DNA of 25,882 nt from a virus, in IMG/VR virus record IMGVR_UViG_3300025889_000844, positions 1 through 25,882 of that record; one strand, 5' to 3'. Below the pieces are notes generated by a model. The model was not told the DNA's origin. It saw nothing but the letters and a program-made list of their open reading frames with translations, and did no database searches. Made by a program: the position numbers and the translations under genes. Shown here one piece after another: positions 1,161 through 23,538 of this stretch (position 1 is its first letter; the number at the start of each line of letters is the position of its first letter).

Positions 1161-1625
1161 ATGAAACTAAGCAGGTACGTATCGTTGGCTGAGGTAACAC
1201 GGAGTGATACCGCTAAGCGCAAAGGGATTGACAACACTCCTACTGGGGAGCATCTCGAGAACCTAAAGGTTATCTGTGAGGATGTGTTTGACAAGGTTCG
1301 TGAGCACTTTGGTGTTCCCATCTACATCTCTAGTGGATACCGGTCTGCTGCCTTGAACAAGGCTATTGGGGGTAGTAAGACCTCGGACCATAACAATGGT
1401 CGTGCTTTGGATCTGGATCAGGATGGCCACGGTAATGGTGTTACCAATGCGGATGTGTTTAACTACATCAAGAACAATCTAGAGTTCGATCAATTGATCT
1501 GGGAGTTCGGAACAGATAAGAATCCTGACTGGGTACACGTAGGCTACCGCAAGGATGCTAACCGCAAGCAGATGTTGAAGGCTGTCAAGGAAGGTGGCAA
1601 GACAAAGTACGTACCGTATAAATAG
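1161..1625 (+). CDS. M15-family peptidoglycan peptidase, probable endolysin
   Basis: A 154-residue protein of the D-Ala-D-Ala carboxypeptidase / L-Ala-D-Glu peptidase type (peptidase M15), expected to cut peptide stems of peptidoglycan at the end of infection. Visible signature: SSGYRS around residue 58-62, then SDHNNGRALDLD with zinc-ligand candidates H77 and D84 (H-x6-D), an acidic catalytic candidate E115 in LIWEF, and the third ligand H126 in WVHVGY. Length is normal for a single-domain phage M15 enzyme. There is no signal peptide, so it should need a holin to reach the periplasm; a holin-like gene lies far away at 18198. It is the first rightward gene after the long gene-poor region and has its own promoter box 4 nt before the ATG. 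Family call is firm; the role as the lysis enzyme is inferred. Confidence 0.9.
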   Translation: MKLSRYVSLAEVTRSDTAKRKGIDNTPTGEHLENLKVICEDVFDKVREHFGVPIYISSGYRSAALNKAIGGSKTSDHNNGRALDLDQDGHGNGVTNADVFNYIKNNLEFDQLIWEFGTDKNPDWVHVGYRKDANRKQMLKAVKEGGKTKYVPYK

Positions 1626-6581: not shown

Positions 6582-8695
6582 TGGCAGGGCTGAAGATGAT
6601 AGACGGCAAAGAGGTGGTAAACATCTGTCCCAATGGGTCGGATGGTCCCATCATTGAGATTGAGTCTATCCTGATTCAGCTGCCAGAGATGCCAGAGGAC
6701 ATCCTATTCAAAAGTTCACCAATATTGAACCAAAAATGGCAAAGATTTGAATTGCCAAAGGAGCTGTCGCAGATCCAGAGTATGGACGACTGGTACGAGG
6801 CTCCTCGTGAGTTTCAGAACAAATGGAACCCGTACATCGAGGAGGAGTTCCGTCGAAGGAGAGAAGGTCTGTGGTTTATGAATAAGGGTGAGCCAACGTA
6901 CATCACAGGACACCACTATATGTTCCTTCAGTGGAGTAAGATTGACATCGGATACCCAGGATACCTAGACTTCCAGAGGAAGCTTTTCACACACTTTGCT
7001 GCGTGCGAGGCTGATCCTCGGTGTTTAGGTCAGATATACACCAAATGTCGACGCTCTGGATACACCAATATGAGCGCTGCTACGCTTGTTGATGAAGGCT
7101 CACAGGTGACGGAAAAGCTGTTGGGCATTATGAGCAAGACTGGTACGGACGCTCAGGAGGCGGTGTTTGGATCTAAGATTGTACCCATCTTCCGTAGCTA
7201 TCCATTCTTCCTTAAGCCTATTCTTGACGGTACCACCAATCCGCGTATGGAGCTTGCGTTCCGTGAGCCGGCAAAGAGGATCACCAAGAAAAACAAGACG
7301 TCCCACCGCGGCGAAGCACTGGACACCATCATCAACTGGAAGAACACAACCAACAACGCATATGACGGTAGCAAGACCCATATGCTGTTCCTTGATGAGG
7401 CCGGTAAATGGCTGAGTCCTAATGACATACGAGAAGTTTGGCGTATTCACCGTACCTGTTTGCTGGTTGGACGTAGGGTGATTGGCAAGGCTATGGTCGG
7501 CTCTACGGTAAACCCGCTCGACAAGGGTGGGCGTGAGTTCAGGGATCTGTACTACGACTCGGACCCCAACGATCGTAACGAGAACGGACGTACCAAGAGC
7601 GGTCTGTATAAGATATTCATACCAGCATATGAGGCATTGGAAGGTTTCTTTGACCAGTACGGTATGCCAATCGTTGACGACCCAGCTGAGCCAGTGATGA
7701 CCGAGGATGGTACGTTTACCTCTATTGGTGCGCGTACCTTCTTGAAGAACGAGCGCAAGGGCCAACAGAACAACAGCTACGAGCTTAACGAGATCATCCG
7801 TCAGTTCCCATTCACGGAAGACGAGGCATTCCGCGACTCAACGAAGTCTTCGCTATTCAACATCCAGAAGATCTACGAGCAGATCCAGCACAACGAGGAG
7901 TTGTTCCCCAATCCCGTTATCATTGGAAACTTCCAGTGGAAGGACGGTAAGCCAGACACTGAGGTTGTGTTTGCCCCAGATCCTAATGGTCGTTGGCGTG
8001 CTTCTTGGCTTGCGCCTCCTGATATCAGAAATAAACGAAAGATGGAGAACAACAAGCTTGTGGCTCCCAACGCAGCGTTCGGCGTGATGGGTGTTGACTC
8101 CTATGACCTTGACACCACGGTAGACTACCGGGCATCTAAGGGCGCCTGCCACGTATACAACAAGTTCTCGATGGAGCACCCGGCGAATATGTTTGTTGCT
8201 GAGTATGCAAGCCGACCACCGCTCGCTAAGATCTTCTACGAGGACGTTCTGATGGCTGCCGTGTTCTATGGGTATCCTATTCTTATAGAGAACAACAAGT
8301 ACGGAATCGCAAGATACTTTGAGTCAAGAGGTTACGACGAGTACCTGATGGACCGTCCTGCCCACCTTGCCACAACAGCAATGAAGACAAGCGTGAAGAC
8401 CAAGGGCATCCCGTCAAACAGCCAAGATGTTATCCAGGCCCACGCACAAGCGATCGAGGCATACATCCACGACCACGTTGGCATCAACAACGAGACTGGT
8501 CAGTTTGGCAGGATGTACTTCTCCAGAACGCTGGAGGACTGGATCAACTTCAAGATTGATGATCGAACAAAGTTTGACTTGACAATCTCGTCGGGTCTAG
8601 CACTTCTCGCAGCACAAAAACAAGTTAAGCAGGTCAAGAAGACTGACTTCAATGATAAGGTTTTCTTCCGTAAGGGCAAGGAAATTACGCGCTAA
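6581..8695 (+). CDS. terL: Terminase large subunit
   Basis: 704 residues, the packaging motor ATPase and headful/end nuclease. Visible motifs: an adenine-side region YITGHHYMFLQW (about 107-118); a deviant Walker A, KCRRSGYTN at residues 155-163, with R157/R158 and T162 where most P-loops have GK[ST]; Walker B MLFLDEAGK with D272/E273; a coupling-type motif GSTVNPLD near 307-314; and the start of the RuvC-like nuclease domain at FGVMGVDSYD, with D506 as first acidic metal ligand. Length and motif order match large terminases of big Bacteroidota phages. It is translationally coupled to the gene before it and followed by the portal. Confidence 0.93.
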   Translation: MAGLKMIDGKEVVNICPNGSDGPIIEIESILIQLPEMPEDILFKSSPILNQKWQRFELPKELSQIQSMDDWYEAPREFQNKWNPYIEEEFRRRREGLWFMNKGEPTYITGHHYMFLQWSKIDIGYPGYLDFQRKLFTHFAACEADPRCLGQIYTKCRRSGYTNMSAATLVDEGSQVTEKLLGIMSKTGTDAQEAVFGSKIVPIFRSYPFFLKPILDGTTNPRMELAFREPAKRITKKNKTSHRGEALDTIINWKNTTNNAYDGSKTHMLFLDEAGKWLSPNDIREVWRIHRTCLLVGRRVIGKAMVGSTVNPLDKGGREFRDLYYDSDPNDRNENGRTKSGLYKIFIPAYEALEGFFDQYGMPIVDDPAEPVMTEDGTFTSIGARTFLKNERKGQQNNSYELNEIIRQFPFTEDEAFRDSTKSSLFNIQKIYEQIQHNEELFPNPVIIGNFQWKDGKPDTEVVFAPDPNGRWRASWLAPPDIRNKRKMENNKLVAPNAAFGVMGVDSYDLDTTVDYRASKGACHVYNKFSMEHPANMFVAEYASRPPLAKIFYEDVLMAAVFYGYPILIENNKYGIARYFESRGYDEYLMDRPAHLATTAMKTSVKTKGIPSNSQDVIQAHAQAIEAYIHDHVGINNETGQFGRMYFSRTLEDWINFKIDDRTKFDLTISSGLALLAAQKQVKQVKKTDFNDKVFFRKGKEITR

Positions 8696-13412: not shown

Positions 13413-13450
13413 GCGGGAGTAGGCAAGTATGCTTGCTCCCGCTTTTCTTT
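13413..13450 (+). terminator. Rho-independent terminator after the first fibre
   Basis: GCGGGAG (13413-13419) pairs with CTCCCGC (13436-13442); inner GCAAG/CTTGC pairs extend the stem with a small bulge. It is followed by TTTTCTTT (13443-13450). The end of the T tract overlaps the next promoter box (13450-13457). Confidence 0.75.
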
Positions 13451-13457
13451 ATCTTTG
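13450..13457 (+). promoter_or_regulatory. -7 promoter box for the HNH gene
   Basis: TATCTTTG, 4 nt before ATG 13462 and fused to the T tract of the upstream terminator. Gives the HNH gene transcription independent of the fibre upstream, probably leaderless. Confidence 0.5.
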
Positions 13458-13461
13458 CATT

Positions 13462-14178
13462 ATGAAGAGATGCATCACTTGCAAAAAAGAAAAACAAATT
13501 GACTCGTTTTCAAAAAACAGGTCTAAAAAAGATGGACGTCAACAAAAATGCAAAGAGTGCGAAAAAGATTACTACTGGAGCAATAGAGATAACATAATAA
13601 AGAAAAGAAAAGAGTCTTTTGAGGAAAACAAAGATTTAATTTTAAGCAAAAGAGCCGAGTACTATAAGAAACACCAAGATAAAAAAATAGCGTACTCAAG
13701 GGCCTACAGAGAGAAAAATAAAGAGAAAGACTTGGCCTATAAAAGGGAGCATTATTACAATAACAAAGAATACTACGCTAATAAGCACAGAGAATATCGC
13801 GATAAAAACAAAGATAGAATTAGAGAGTATCACACAAAGTATTGCGCTAAAAGAAGGAGCTCTGATCCAATGTATAGGTTGGTTTCTGGGATTCGTTCTC
13901 GAATTTCTAATATTTGTTCTTCAATGAAAAACAAAAAAAACTGGAAAACATTTGATGCAATAGGATGTAATCGTGAAGACTTTAAATTATACATTGAGTC
14001 TTTTTTTGTAAGCGGTATGTCTTGGGATAACTATGGTGAATGGCACATTGATCACATCAAGCCACTCTGCACAGCAAAGACAGAAGAAGACGTTTTCACA
14101 CTGAATCACTACACTAATCTCCGGCCGATGTGGTGGTTTGACAATTTAGCTAAAGGCGGTAAATACCAAGAATTATGA
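13462..14178 (+). CDS. HNH endonuclease, probable homing type
   Basis: 238 residues from ATG 13462; the upstream in-frame ATG at 13429 lies within the terminator hairpin and is rejected. N-terminus MKRCITCKKEKQIDSF with C4/C7 and C30/C33 forms a zinc-ribbon-like pair of CxxC motifs. A long basic, Tyr/Lys-rich middle (about 40-130) looks like DNA-binding helix repeats. The nuclease core is HIDHIKPL at 195-202, LNHYTNLRPM at 214-223 and WWFDNLAKGGK at 224-234, the beta-beta-alpha metal pattern of HNH enzymes. Codon use is strongly A/T-rich (AAA, AGA, ATA) compared with the fibre before it, a sign of recent arrival. It overlaps the following fibre gene by 4 bp (ATGA). Sits between two fibre genes, a usual target of such nucleases. 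Confidence 0.9.
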   Translation: MKRCITCKKEKQIDSFSKNRSKKDGRQQKCKECEKDYYWSNRDNIIKKRKESFEENKDLILSKRAEYYKKHQDKKIAYSRAYREKNKEKDLAYKREHYYNNKEYYANKHREYRDKNKDRIREYHTKYCAKRRSSDPMYRLVSGIRSRISNICSSMKNKKNWKTFDAIGCNREDFKLYIESFFVSGMSWDNYGEWHIDHIKPLCTAKTEEDVFTLNHYTNLRPMWWFDNLAKGGKYQEL

Positions 14179-18197: not shown

Positions 18198-18425
18198 GTG
18201 AAGTTCTGGGATATCTTCAAAGACAACAACGAATACAACGAGAAGACCATCATTGGTTTTCTTTCATTCGCTGTAATGGCAATCTTTGCTGGTGCTGACA
18301 TTGTAACTGGCATCCTTGAAAAGCCTTTGGTTATTCAAGACACTATCTTCAACTCTTTCGTTATCATTACAATTGGTGCCCTCGGTATCGCTGAGGCAGG
18401 TAAAATCTTTGCCGACAAAAAATGA
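18198..18425 (+). CDS. Two-membrane-segment protein, candidate holin
   Basis: 75 residues from GTG 18198, 3 bp after the previous stop; no ATG in the N-terminal part would keep the first membrane segment intact. N-terminus MKFWDIFKDNNEYNEK, then a membrane segment at about 17-36 (TIIGFLSFAVMAIFAGADIV) and a second at about 47-66 (IFNSFVIITIGALGIAEAGK), with a short basic tail FADKK. Size, two segments and basic end fit a class II holin, which would let the M15 endolysin reach the cell wall. It heads a cluster of four small overlapping membrane-associated genes. Holin function is inferred. Confidence 0.65.
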   Translation: MKFWDIFKDNNEYNEKTIIGFLSFAVMAIFAGADIVTGILEKPLVIQDTIFNSFVIITIGALGIAEAGKIFADKK

Positions 18426-18673
18426 AAATGCCCGTTACTTTTGATCAATTTCAAAAGAATCCAATTGCTGCCCTCGCATTCATCTTTATGGTTGTGATTG
18501 GCTATCTGTATATTGATCAGAAGATAAACTACAGCAAGGTTGACGACCGCTGTCAAACACGAGTGTCTGAACTCGAAGTGAAGGTTGAAAGCTATACCGA
18601 GCACATCCGACGCCTCGACTCCGCACTCGCATACACAAGTGCTAAAAACGAAATGCTCATACAAACACGATGA
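18422..18673 (+). CDS. Membrane-anchored coiled-coil protein, spanin-like
   Basis: 83 residues starting in the stop of the holin candidate (ATGA). One membrane segment at about 15-32 (AALAFIFMVVIGYLYI) followed by a likely coiled coil to the end (VSELEVKVESYTEHIRRLDSALAYTSAKNEM) containing one Cys (DRCQ). A single N-terminal anchor with a periplasmic helix is the build of inner-membrane spanins (Rz type). It overlaps the next gene by 4 bp. Role inferred from build and place. Confidence 0.55.
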   Translation: MKMPVTFDQFQKNPIAALAFIFMVVIGYLYIDQKINYSKVDDRCQTRVSELEVKVESYTEHIRRLDSALAYTSAKNEMLIQTR

Positions 18674-19017
18674 AACACACTCTCCTACTTTTATCTGTTG
18701 GTGTTACCATTGGCGCCGTAATCGCAAATCAGAACAAGAAGCCTGAGGTTATGCCAGACCCTGTTGAGCTTATCATTGAAAAATCTAAACAAACGATGAA
18801 GCAGGCGGCCGCTGTTTCTCAGCGTGCAGACCAGAAGGTTCTCGAACAAGTTCAGGAGATGAAGCAAACGATCGAGGTCCTTGCAGAGGAGAAGGAACAG
18901 CTTGTTAAACAAGTAAATGTAATGGAGAATGAAATCATTGCTGTTAAAGCTGTTGCTGATGCACAGCCTTTTGATGTACTCGCAATCGGTGTACCCGATA
19001 CAGCGGGTCGAAAATAA
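18670..19017 (+). CDS. Membrane-anchored coiled-coil protein, spanin-like (second)
   Basis: 115 residues starting MKHTLLLLSVGVTIGAVIAN, a membrane anchor or uncleaved signal at about 3-20, then a long coiled coil (about 30-95: IIEKSKQTMKQAAAVSQ, KVLEQVQEMKQTIEVL, EEKEQLVKQVNVMENEI) and a short C-terminal end with no hydrophobic patch. Overlaps the previous gene by 4 bp and is overlapped at its 3' end by the next gene for 89 bp in another frame. The nested arrangement recalls Rz/Rz1 gene pairs, but the protein inside the overlap has no lipobox Cys. Inferred periplasm-spanning role. Confidence 0.6.
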   Translation: MKHTLLLLSVGVTIGAVIANQNKKPEVMPDPVELIIEKSKQTMKQAAAVSQRADQKVLEQVQEMKQTIEVLAEEKEQLVKQVNVMENEIIAVKAVADAQPFDVLAIGVPDTAGRK

Positions 19018-19294
19018 AGACACCGTAGTCGTTATGACTAAGGCTCAGGCTGTTGCTATCAACAACCGCTATCTTTCTATGGACTCAACAATCAAAGCAT
19101 ACAATGAAGCTTACAAGTTCAAATATCTTCAATATAGTCAAGCAGTTAAAGCTTTGGATCGCCAAGATTCAGTCATTGCTGAACTCAATCGACAACTCCT
19201 CGTCAAGCCGTCGTTCCGACCAATGACCACTACGGACATCGTGATGACTGTTGTTATTTCAATGTTTGGTACATTCTTAGTAACCCTTCCTTAA
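18929..19294 (+). CDS. Protein with signal peptide and C-terminal membrane segment, lysis cluster
   Basis: 121 residues. ATG 18929 lies inside the previous gene (89-bp overlap, different frame); it is preferred because it gives a full signal-like N-terminus MKSLLLKLLLMHSLLMYSQ. Alternatives are ATG 18959 and 18974. The middle (about 35-95) is helical and polar (AQAVAINNRYLSMDSTIKAYNEAYKF, ALDRQDSVIAELNRQLL), and residues 100-120 (TTDIVMTVVISMFGTFLVTLP) form a membrane segment at the very C-terminus. An N-terminal export signal plus a C-terminal anchor matches the topology of unimolecular spanins, except that I see no lipobox Cys. Function uncertain. Confidence 0.6.
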   Translation: MKSLLLKLLLMHSLLMYSQSVYPIQRVENKDTVVVMTKAQAVAINNRYLSMDSTIKAYNEAYKFKYLQYSQAVKALDRQDSVIAELNRQLLVKPSFRPMTTTDIVMTVVISMFGTFLVTLP

Positions 19295-21234: not shown

Positions 21235-22653
21235 ATGTCAACTATTTCAACTCCGTTGGATTTTTCCCCCAACAGTTTTCGTCGGTTAGATCCGACCAAA
21301 TATGTATCTCTTGGTGATTTCATCAACGAGGTAAACAAGCCCGATAACCGTGACCTTCTCGTTAAGACCTACGGCAACCAAGGCATCACTGGCTTCCTCC
21401 AGATGGTAGGAGCTGTGAAGTCTAACGGTGTTGCTGACGAGGTTCAGTACTGGGAGGAGACCCGTCTGCACCAAGTACAGGTTGCTGCTCCTTCAGCCAC
21501 TGTAAACGCTGGTGCAACGTCTATCGTTCTTGAGATGGCTTCTGCTGCCACTAGCGCGACTGGTGCTACCAAGGCTGCTGCCCAGAAGTACCTGCGTGTA
21601 AACGACGTGATCTTGGTTGGTGGTGTAGACCGCTTCATCATCACTGCTGTTTCTGCTGGTGAATACTCTCAAACTGCTACTGCTGCTGCAACTGCTGTTG
21701 CTCTTACGTCTGCTGGCTTGAGCGCCAACGTAACCACTGCTGCCGCAAACTACCCGATCATCGGTAATATGTTTGCTCAAGGTACCGACCAGAACACTGG
21801 CTACCTCGAGTCTAACGTTGTTAAGCGCACCAACCCGTACCAAATCTTGAAAGAGGTTTACAAGGTTACTGGTTCGCAGGCTACCAACATCGGCTGGATC
21901 AACTTGGGCAACGGCGACTACCGCTGGTTCATCAAGTCTGAGAACGACACTCGTCAGCGCTTCCTCGACAAGCGTGAGATGATGATGCTGTTGGGCGAAG
22001 AGGTTTCTAACACCGGTTTGACGACCCTTGGTTCGATCGCTGGTTCAGAAGGTTACTTCTCTGCTCTTGCTAACCGCGGTATCGTAGTTAACTCTGGTGC
22101 TACCACGACTGCTGCTATCGCTACCCTTGACGAGTTGGATGCTGTTATCACGGCCCTCGACAAGCAAGGTGCTATGCCTGAGTACGCTATGTACGTTAAC
22201 CGCCTGCAAGATCTTGCCTTCGACGATATGATCGCTCAAGGTACGTCTACGGCTGCTAACATCACCGCTGGTGTTACCACTCAGTTCGGTCAGTTCGCTA
22301 ACGCCGACGATATGGTGAAGCTTGGCTTCTCTTCGTTTATGCGTGGCAGCTACACGTTCCACAAGCACAGCTGGAAGCTCCTCAACGACCCCACGTTGTT
22401 GGCCGGAAGCAACTTCCAAGGTGTTATGATTCCGTTGACCAAAGTTGCTGATCCGCGCACTGGAGAGAAGTCTCCGGCTCTGGAGCTCAACTACAAGGCT
22501 ACCAACGGATACAGCCGCGAAATGGAGCACTGGATGACGGGTTCTATCCTTGGTGTAACCAACACCAACACGGACGCCCTGCAGTTCAACTACCGCTCGG
22601 AGTTCGCTCTGGTAACTCGCGCAGCCAATCAGCACGTGTTGCTCAGTAAGTAA
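21235..22653 (+). CDS. Major capsid protein
   Basis: 472 residues. N-terminus with RRLDPTKYVSLGDFINEVN and the extended GVADEVQYWEETRLHQVQ pattern seen in HK97-fold capsid proteins; then an Ala/Thr/Val-rich insertion of about 70 residues (about 85-165) that looks like a beta-rich surface domain; a core with RWFIKSENDTRQRFLDKREMMMLLGEE and the C-terminal part FHKHSWKLLND, ALELNYKATNGYSREMEHWMTGS. Codon use is very uniform (GCT, GGT, AAC, CGC/CGT, TAC), as expected for the most abundant virion protein. Preceded by the scaffold-like gene and followed by a strong terminator. HK97 fold is inferred; no cleavage site is obvious. Confidence 0.85.
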   Translation: MSTISTPLDFSPNSFRRLDPTKYVSLGDFINEVNKPDNRDLLVKTYGNQGITGFLQMVGAVKSNGVADEVQYWEETRLHQVQVAAPSATVNAGATSIVLEMASAATSATGATKAAAQKYLRVNDVILVGGVDRFIITAVSAGEYSQTATAAATAVALTSAGLSANVTTAAANYPIIGNMFAQGTDQNTGYLESNVVKRTNPYQILKEVYKVTGSQATNIGWINLGNGDYRWFIKSENDTRQRFLDKREMMMLLGEEVSNTGLTTLGSIAGSEGYFSALANRGIVVNSGATTTAAIATLDELDAVITALDKQGAMPEYAMYVNRLQDLAFDDMIAQGTSTAANITAGVTTQFGQFANADDMVKLGFSSFMRGSYTFHKHSWKLLNDPTLLAGSNFQGVMIPLTKVADPRTGEKSPALELNYKATNGYSREMEHWMTGSILGVTNTNTDALQFNYRSEFALVTRAANQHVLLSK

Positions 22654-22678
22654 TTGATTTTTAATCACTTACGACAGA

Positions 22679-22702
22679 GAGGGCCTTCGGGCCCTCTTTT
22701 TT
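22679..22702 (+). terminator. Rho-independent terminator with UUCG loop after the capsid gene
   Basis: GAGGGCC (22679-22685), loop TTCG, GGCCCTC (22690-22696), then six T residues (22697-22702). Perfect 7-bp GC-rich stem with a UUCG tetraloop; would give a very stable 3' end to the capsid mRNA. Confidence 0.9.
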
Positions 22703-22732
22703 ATTGCCGAAATTTTGCATTACTACAACAGC

Positions 22733-22740
22733 TAATTTTG
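22733..22740 (+). promoter_or_regulatory. -7 promoter box
   Basis: TAATTTTG, 30 nt before ATG 22771 and about 30 bp after the terminator. A TTTTG 15 nt upstream is closer than the usual -33 spacing. Confidence 0.45.
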
Positions 22741-22770
22741 CAGAAGTTATTAACATAATTCTATTTAACA

Positions 22771-23538
22771 ATGGCACGTCCAGCAACACGAGCAGCCGCA
22801 GCTCCTAAAGCGGAAACAACGGAACGTAAGGCTAAGATCTTTCACATTCCAAAGGGCGGTGGCATCATCGCCACCATTAAGTCAGAGGCTATTATCTACG
22901 ATCCTGAGAGCAATACCAATCGACAGATTCGATACTGCCCGAACGAACCTTCAATCTTTGCAGACGAGCAGAGCAACCTTGCTGTTCGCAAGCACGTGGT
23001 CTTTGAGAATGGCCTTCTTATAGTCCAGCCAACAGAGCCCACACTTATGCGATTCTTAGAGATGCATCCCGGAAACCGAGCCAATGGTGGTGGTTTGTTT
23101 GAAGAGGTTAACACCGAACACAAGGCGGAGGTTGATGTAAATGCGGAGTTCATCATTCACGATGCAATTGGTCTTGTCCGCAACAAGAGCGTCGATGAAT
23201 TGATTCCTGTGGCTATATACTTAGGTATTGACACTCGCCAGAAAAATGCCGAGATTAAGCGTGAGCTTCTTCTGGAGGCTAAGTCTAACCCAAAGCGATT
23301 CATTGAGTTGTTCGACAACCCAACGGTTGCAGCCCGAGCAACAGTTAAGAAAGCTGTTGATTACCAGCTGCTTATGGCTCGTGAAGACGGAATGTTCTGG
23401 TTTGACAGTAATCGTTTGATCGTTGCAACTCCTGCAGGACAGGATACCGTAAGCGTTATGACGCAGTTCTGTATGACAGAAAAAGGTGCTCAGACTTACG
23501 AAACTTTGAAAGAAGAGTTGCAGAAGTTAGAAATGTAA
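22771..23538 (+). CDS. Virion-associated protein of unknown role
   Basis: 255 residues. N-terminal Ala/Arg/Lys-rich tail (MARPATRAAAAPKAETTERK) followed by IFHIPKGGGIIATIKSEAIIYDPESN and RQIRYCPNEPSIFADEQ; a helical part (about 125-205, RNKSVDELIPVAIYLGI, IKRELLLEAKSNPKRFIELFDNP) and a C-terminal beta/helix part (MFWFDSNRLIVATPAGQDT, SVMTQFCMTEKGAQTYETLKEEL). I recall similar proteins beside capsid genes of Bacteroidota and marine phages but no defined role. Lies between the capsid and connector genes, with its own promoter and a terminator. Confidence 0.7.
   Translation: MARPATRAAAAPKAETTERKAKIFHIPKGGGIIATIKSEAIIYDPESNTNRQIRYCPNEPSIFADEQSNLAVRKHVVFENGLLIVQPTEPTLMRFLEMHPGNRANGGGLFEEVNTEHKAEVDVNAEFIIHDAIGLVRNKSVDELIPVAIYLGIDTRQKNAEIKRELLLEAKSNPKRFIELFDNPTVAARATVKKAVDYQLLMAREDGMFWFDSNRLIVATPAGQDTVSVMTQFCMTEKGAQTYETLKEELQKLEM

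Follow-up and report, generated by a model that had tools for sequence, protein, structure and literature searches.

The window analysed here, a virus record of 25.9 kb and probably no more than a fragment of a phage genome, has affinities to Flavobacterium phage elemo and to Cellulophaga and Maribacter phages. Its TerL is 40% identical to those of these phages (the best TerL match, at 48%, is an environmental record), and its MCP is ~29.5% identical to relatives among them. Four ORFs with successive overlaps of 4, 4, and 89 bp are placed between the portal and capsid genes (Table 1). Their coordinates and overlaps match exactly those given in the initial annotation, which had proposed a lysis cluster with an unusual spanin-like overlap. 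The gene for the M15 peptidase endolysin is located 16.6 kb upstream of the set, in agreement with the distance of more than 16 kb reported there.

Table 1. Features of the four-ORF set and of the presumed partner enzyme in the window
Feature	Position	Strand	Basis
M15 peptidase endolysin (presumed partner enzyme)	1161..1625	+	phrog_894 endolysin, E = 4e-40
Holin-like protein, 75 aa, two hydrophobic segments	18198..18425	+	GTG start; hydropathy
I83, 83 aa, N-terminal membrane anchor then predicted coiled coil (i-spanin-like)	18422..18673	+	Hydropathy, alignment
CC115, 115 aa, N-terminal anchor then predicted coiled coil (i-spanin-like)	18670..19017	+	Hydropathy, alignment
TA121, 121 aa, SPase-I-type signal, predicted periplasmic coiled coil, C-terminal hydrophobic helix	18929..19294	+	Alignments, hydropathy, charge flanks
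CC115/TA121 dual-coding overlap, 89 bp, frame +1	18929..19017	+	18/18 loci, synonymous divergence

The topologies of all four proteins were deduced from hydropathy and sequence, and the coiled coils of CC115 and I83 from sequence. Hydropathy agrees with the topologies described earlier: two segments in the 75-aa protein, a single N-terminal segment each in I83 and CC115, and a single C-terminal segment in TA121. The C-terminus of CC115 reaches a borderline score (1.33) beside its N-terminal segment. The N-terminus of TA121, MKSLLLKLLLMHSLLMYSQS, reads as a Bacteroidota SPase-I-type signal peptide. The defining feature of o- and u-spanins is a lipobox. TA121 contains no Cys at all, and the alignments reveal no lipobox in it or in any of its 18 elemo-type homologues, which bears out the absence of a lipobox Cys claimed for this gene. 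Many TA relatives have a Cys ~11 residues from the start, which is too early and without lipobox context. Rz-like PHROG matches of I83 are weak and sub-threshold only. More generally, PHROG and Pfam matches of the coiled-coil proteins were discounted, being of the type that coiled coils yield by chance, and PDB profile searches returned nothing credible.

The overlap between CC115 and TA121 is real dual coding. It is 80 to 89 bp long and in frame +1 in all 18 homologous loci, a count of loci and not of independent events, as some IMG/VR loci are near-duplicates or fragments. Across these loci, the synonymous divergence of CC115 drops ~3-fold (0.76 outside the overlap versus 0.23 inside), and that of TA121 drops ~2-fold (0.63 versus 0.30). 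Moreover, when the window was scanned blindly for a single-anchor ORF overlapped by a signal-peptide ORF, CC115/TA121 was the only such pair. The same scan of 14 long contigs retrieved this locus wherever it is intact, two further like pairs, and two matches that were judged spurious. Given its recurrence in every locus, the reduced synonymous divergence, and its standing as the sole match of the blind scan, the overlap is more than a product of chance. One locus has an aberrant arrangement (L098:702-2285): the MCP homologue stops after 321 aa and leads straight into CC115/TA, without I83 or a holin, which represents either an assembly chimera or a truncated capsid gene.

The holin-like protein belongs to a family with 384 matching stretches in IMG/VR. 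An endolysin homologue lies within 1.5 kb in 61 of the best 80 loci of this family, the window itself not being such a case, and the relative in the cultured phage immuto (gp192) adjoins an annotated endolysin. The small size, the two hydrophobic segments, and the nearby endolysin in relatives are those of a two-TMD holin and sustain the earlier "holin-like" label; the protein has no significant PHROG or Pfam hit and matches no curated holin family.

A search for the set in related phages, as had been proposed, showed that the I83-CC-TA triplet, including a conserved I83, is kept in two different phage types, elemo-like and myovirus-like. In elemo-like contigs, the triplet is usually located 3′ of the holin-like gene. 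The gene order is u-spanin, small membrane protein, I83, CC115, TA, M15 endolysin in contig L095, where the M15 homologue directly follows TA, and holin, I83, CC115, TA, GH19, u-spanin in contig L002. A u-spanin gene is directly 3′ of TA in four further contigs (L085, L086, L088, L090). In myovirus-like contigs (L055, L058, L066, L076, L104-L114), the order is I83-CC-TA-holin-endolysin; the endolysin is of the M15, GH19, or PG-binding type and, where the contig extends that far, is followed by a PF05105-type holin. Because adjacency to a holin, endolysin, or u-spanin gene is repeated in two phage types, the lysis link of the I83-CC-TA set is well supported, and with it the lysis cluster of the initial annotation.

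The constant part of the TA family is an N-terminal signal and an aligned motif, YP....DT.V...K.QA..N, and all TA variants overlap a CC gene in +1. The family has three types of C-terminal end: a hydrophobic helix of ~20 aa (window type, L055, L066); a ~190-aa domain rich in Gly, Thr, Ser, and aromatic residues, ending ..YTYAGLAFRFSK (L058, L104-L114); and a soluble end (L021, G017), with the G017 protein having no membrane anchor at all. Judged by sequence, the TA C-terminus is swapped between a basic-flanked helix, a putatively beta-rich domain, and no anchor. The helix is preceded by 2 to 5 K/R and followed by 0 or 1 in 21/21 homologues, whereas 2 to 5 K/R follow the TMD in all 11 u-spanins compared (including those of 11b, 6H, and FCL-2). 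Such a charge pattern is odd for an inner-membrane C-in anchor. The beta-rich character of the ~190-aa end is weakly indicated: of three beta-ended members, two show nominally significant strand alternation (P = 0.02 and 0.045; P = 0.32 in the third), and AlphaFold2 models of a beta-ended TA are unusable (pLDDT of 34 for the whole protein and 27 for the C-domain alone). No match to the TA variants was found by tblastn among 50,697 phage records, and a contig scan with the TA alignment and one short pattern gave no relative. The claim of an unusual spanin-like overlap hence needs rewording: an overlapping architecture without a lipobox is present, but its unusual part is the interchangeable TA C-terminus, and the relevant pair is CC115/TA121.

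The suggestion that TA121 itself is a unimolecular spanin is not supported by the sequences, since relatives that have this set encode a u-spanin of their own besides it. A scan for proteins with a lipobox and a C-terminal TMD detected one in 10 of 12 long elemo-like contigs with TA. Homology added the u-spanins of G007 (signal LLTGC) and G014 (N-terminus with the lipobox not readable in the contig), which brings the count to 12/12. The u-spanin gene is usually far from TA, ~20 kb beyond the MCP gene in the genomes most like the window. Within the window, no u-spanin was found, just a spurious antisense frame; given its presence and usually distant location in these contigs, the u-spanin of the window's phage is probably encoded beyond the window's right end.

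Applying the same criteria to two long myovirus contigs of uncertain completeness, we found no u-spanin candidate in either G018 (170 kb, beta-rich TA end) or G017 (187 kb, TA189). Scans for myoviruses with a helix-ended TA (L055 and L066 type) gave no contig with that TA longer than 14 kb. We do not claim a rule by which a helix-ended TA goes with a u-spanin and a beta-ended TA goes without one, there being a single long beta-ended contig and G017 having neither.

With overlapped two-component spanins (the lambda-like Rz/Rz1 class; PMC6139136), CC115/TA121 shares a single-anchor coiled-coil gene, an out-of-frame 3′ overlap, an exported partner, and a lysis context. Both CC115 and I83 have the N-terminal TMD and predicted periplasmic coiled coil of that class, and the class's linkage to holin and endolysin genes is seen in relatives; in the window, the holin-like gene adjoins and the endolysin gene is distant. 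CC115/TA121 differs from the Rz/Rz1 class in that the TA partner has an SPase-I-type signal without a lipobox and ends in a hydrophobic helix, a putatively beta-rich domain, or nothing, and there is no family-level sequence match. Because the lipobox is absent, we do not file CC115/TA121 as a spanin, and it is not a bona fide one. The u-spanins of flavobacterial phages (11b gp49, 6H gp36, FCL-2 gp19, and those of elemo-like contigs) resemble TA121 in their exported N-terminus and C-terminal hydrophobic segment. However, a lipobox, a more hydrophobic TMD, and 2 to 5 K/R after it set them apart from the window-type TA, which has none of these features and coexists with such a u-spanin in relatives.

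Pairs of like architecture are found in two cultured phages. In Flavobacterium phage immuto, gp187 has one anchor and a coiled coil, and an 89-bp overlap in +1 links its gene to that of gp186, which has a signal, a coiled coil, and a weakly hydrophobic C-terminal segment. This pair occupies positions 7356-8019 (NC_055915, L115), with gp186 probably beginning at ATG 7618 and not at the annotated start further downstream, 7660. Among the phages for which Kongari et al. (PMC6139136) list no spanin is Croceibacter phage P2559S. Its gp29, with an N-anchor and a coiled coil, is encoded directly after the endolysin. In the region 27508-28065 (NC_018276, L196), the annotated GTG start of gp30 (27826) looks too late, and an unannotated 5′ extension (ATG 27508 or 27577) overlaps gp29 out of frame. 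So extended, gp30 gains a signal peptide (..LALSQ) and a coiled coil; its short end, ..GGRLSFAIW, is beta-like. The partner ends of the two pairs are thus C-terminally hydrophobic or beta-like, as in the TA family. Unlike CC115/TA121, both pairs are annotated as hypothetical with the start of the second gene set too far downstream; they have no detectable sequence similarity to TA121, and tblastn gave no credible relatives for them. What they have in common with CC115/TA121 is architecture, not homology. Second overlapping pairs, with a 77-bp overlap, are present in G018 (132795-133461, minus strand) and G017 (22257-22929, minus strand). In each, a single-anchor protein is joined by one with a signal, a coiled coil, and a C-terminal TM, and the pair is located away from lysis genes.

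That CC115 and TA121 are an overlapping pair which co-evolves and is linked to lysis is strongly supported; a spanin-like mechanism, with the topology of the pair, its complex formation, and its action at the outer membrane, is inferred. Our tentative proposal, and the best single reading, is that CC115 and TA121 form an auxiliary, lipid-free spanin-like pair within a lysis-linked envelope module. It rests on how the genes are arranged, on the export signal, on coiled coils predicted for CC115 and TA121 alike, and on the replacement of the helix by a beta-rich end. The holin-like protein would perforate the inner membrane. CC115, helped by I83, would meet TA121 through periplasmic coiled coils, the two being built like an i-spanin and an o-spanin without the lipoprotein. 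TA121 would be exported by its cleavable signal and touch a membrane with its C-terminus, and once the peptidoglycan is cut by the endolysin, the pair would contribute to breaching or fusing the outer membrane. The window's phage group would use the pair alongside a canonical u-spanin encoded elsewhere; the beta-rich TA C-terminus of at least one myovirus relative may take the place of that u-spanin. The dual coding, the lysis context in two phage types, the C-terminal exchange in the same locus, the 170-kb beta-ended contig without a u-spanin candidate, and the like architecture in immuto and P2559S all argue for the spanin-like pair. Against it stand the missing lipobox, the u-spanin already present in relatives, the anchorless TA of G017, the low pLDDT and weakly significant alternation of the beta-rich end, and the sub-threshold level of the Rz-like profiles.

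Several of these same points would suit the main rival, in which I83, CC115, and TA121 are inner-membrane-anchored periplasmic regulators of lysis timing, antiholin-like proteins that hold back or trigger the holin, and the u-spanin alone breaks the outer membrane. The set is always near a holin-like gene, a u-spanin is encoded elsewhere in all 12 long elemo-like contigs, three membrane proteins seem beyond what a spanin needs, and the TA of G017 has no anchor. Yet timing regulators would not account for a TA end that is replaced by a beta-rich domain, and the charges around the TA helix are unlike those of a normal inner-membrane C-in anchor and of the same phages' u-spanins; we regard this rival as rather unlikely. 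A non-lysis role in the envelope, such as superinfection exclusion or envelope remodelling, would be in line with the position of the set among structural genes, far from the endolysin gene, in the window and several relatives, and with the second pairs of G017 and G018. Such a role is improbable, as the set lies time and again right beside holin, endolysin, or u-spanin genes, and does so across different phage types. Location between the portal and capsid genes might also point to minor virion proteins, but in other phages the set travels together with holin and endolysin genes, and it has membrane and signal features. Homologues known as virion proteins had been named as evidence that would overturn the lysis assignment; no homologue is annotated as structural, most of them being in unannotated contigs, and we consider a virion role very unlikely. 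Equally slim are the chances that TA121 is a unimolecular spanin attached to the outer membrane in some unusual way: it has the signal peptide and C-terminal hydrophobic segment, but besides the missing lipobox and the separate u-spanin of relatives, it is paired with CC115 wherever the locus is intact.

If the spanin-like reading is extended, Bacteroidota phages might use lipid-free two-component spanins, in which an i-spanin-like gene is overlapped by that of a coiled-coil partner, exported with an SPase-I-type signal and touching the outer membrane with its C-terminus, replacing u-spanins or working alongside them. Contact with the outer membrane would be made by beta-strands in P2559S gp30 and the L105-type TA and by the basic-flanked helix in the window type. 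We consider this generalization doubtful. Such a class would have escaped notice because a lipobox is demanded in surveys and the start of the overlapping gene is wrongly annotated. Kongari et al. could recognise no spanin in about 13% of the phage genomes in their survey (PMC6139136), and a 2025 survey that required a lipobox concluded that Bacteroidetes phages use only unimolecular spanins (PMC12596118). We suggest that the conserved overlapping pair with its interchangeable non-lipid C-terminus, together with the immuto and P2559S look-alikes, provides named genes for trying out the suggestion that an OMP or a type I protein may serve as a spanin.

Two other proteins drew our attention. In phage elemoA (MT497075, L103), QMP85595.1 (12468-13013) has an N-terminal TM and a C-terminal strand-like stretch ending ..GIGIPIF (alternation P = 0.008), and could bridge the membranes as a single protein in inverted orientation; its gene is two genes after the neighbour of an M15-like endolysin gene. 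In the window, the protein encoded at 13429-14178, which starts like a CxxC zinc finger and contains an HIDHI motif, reads by eye as HNH-endonuclease-like; flanked by tail-fibre-like genes, it is possibly a homing endonuclease.
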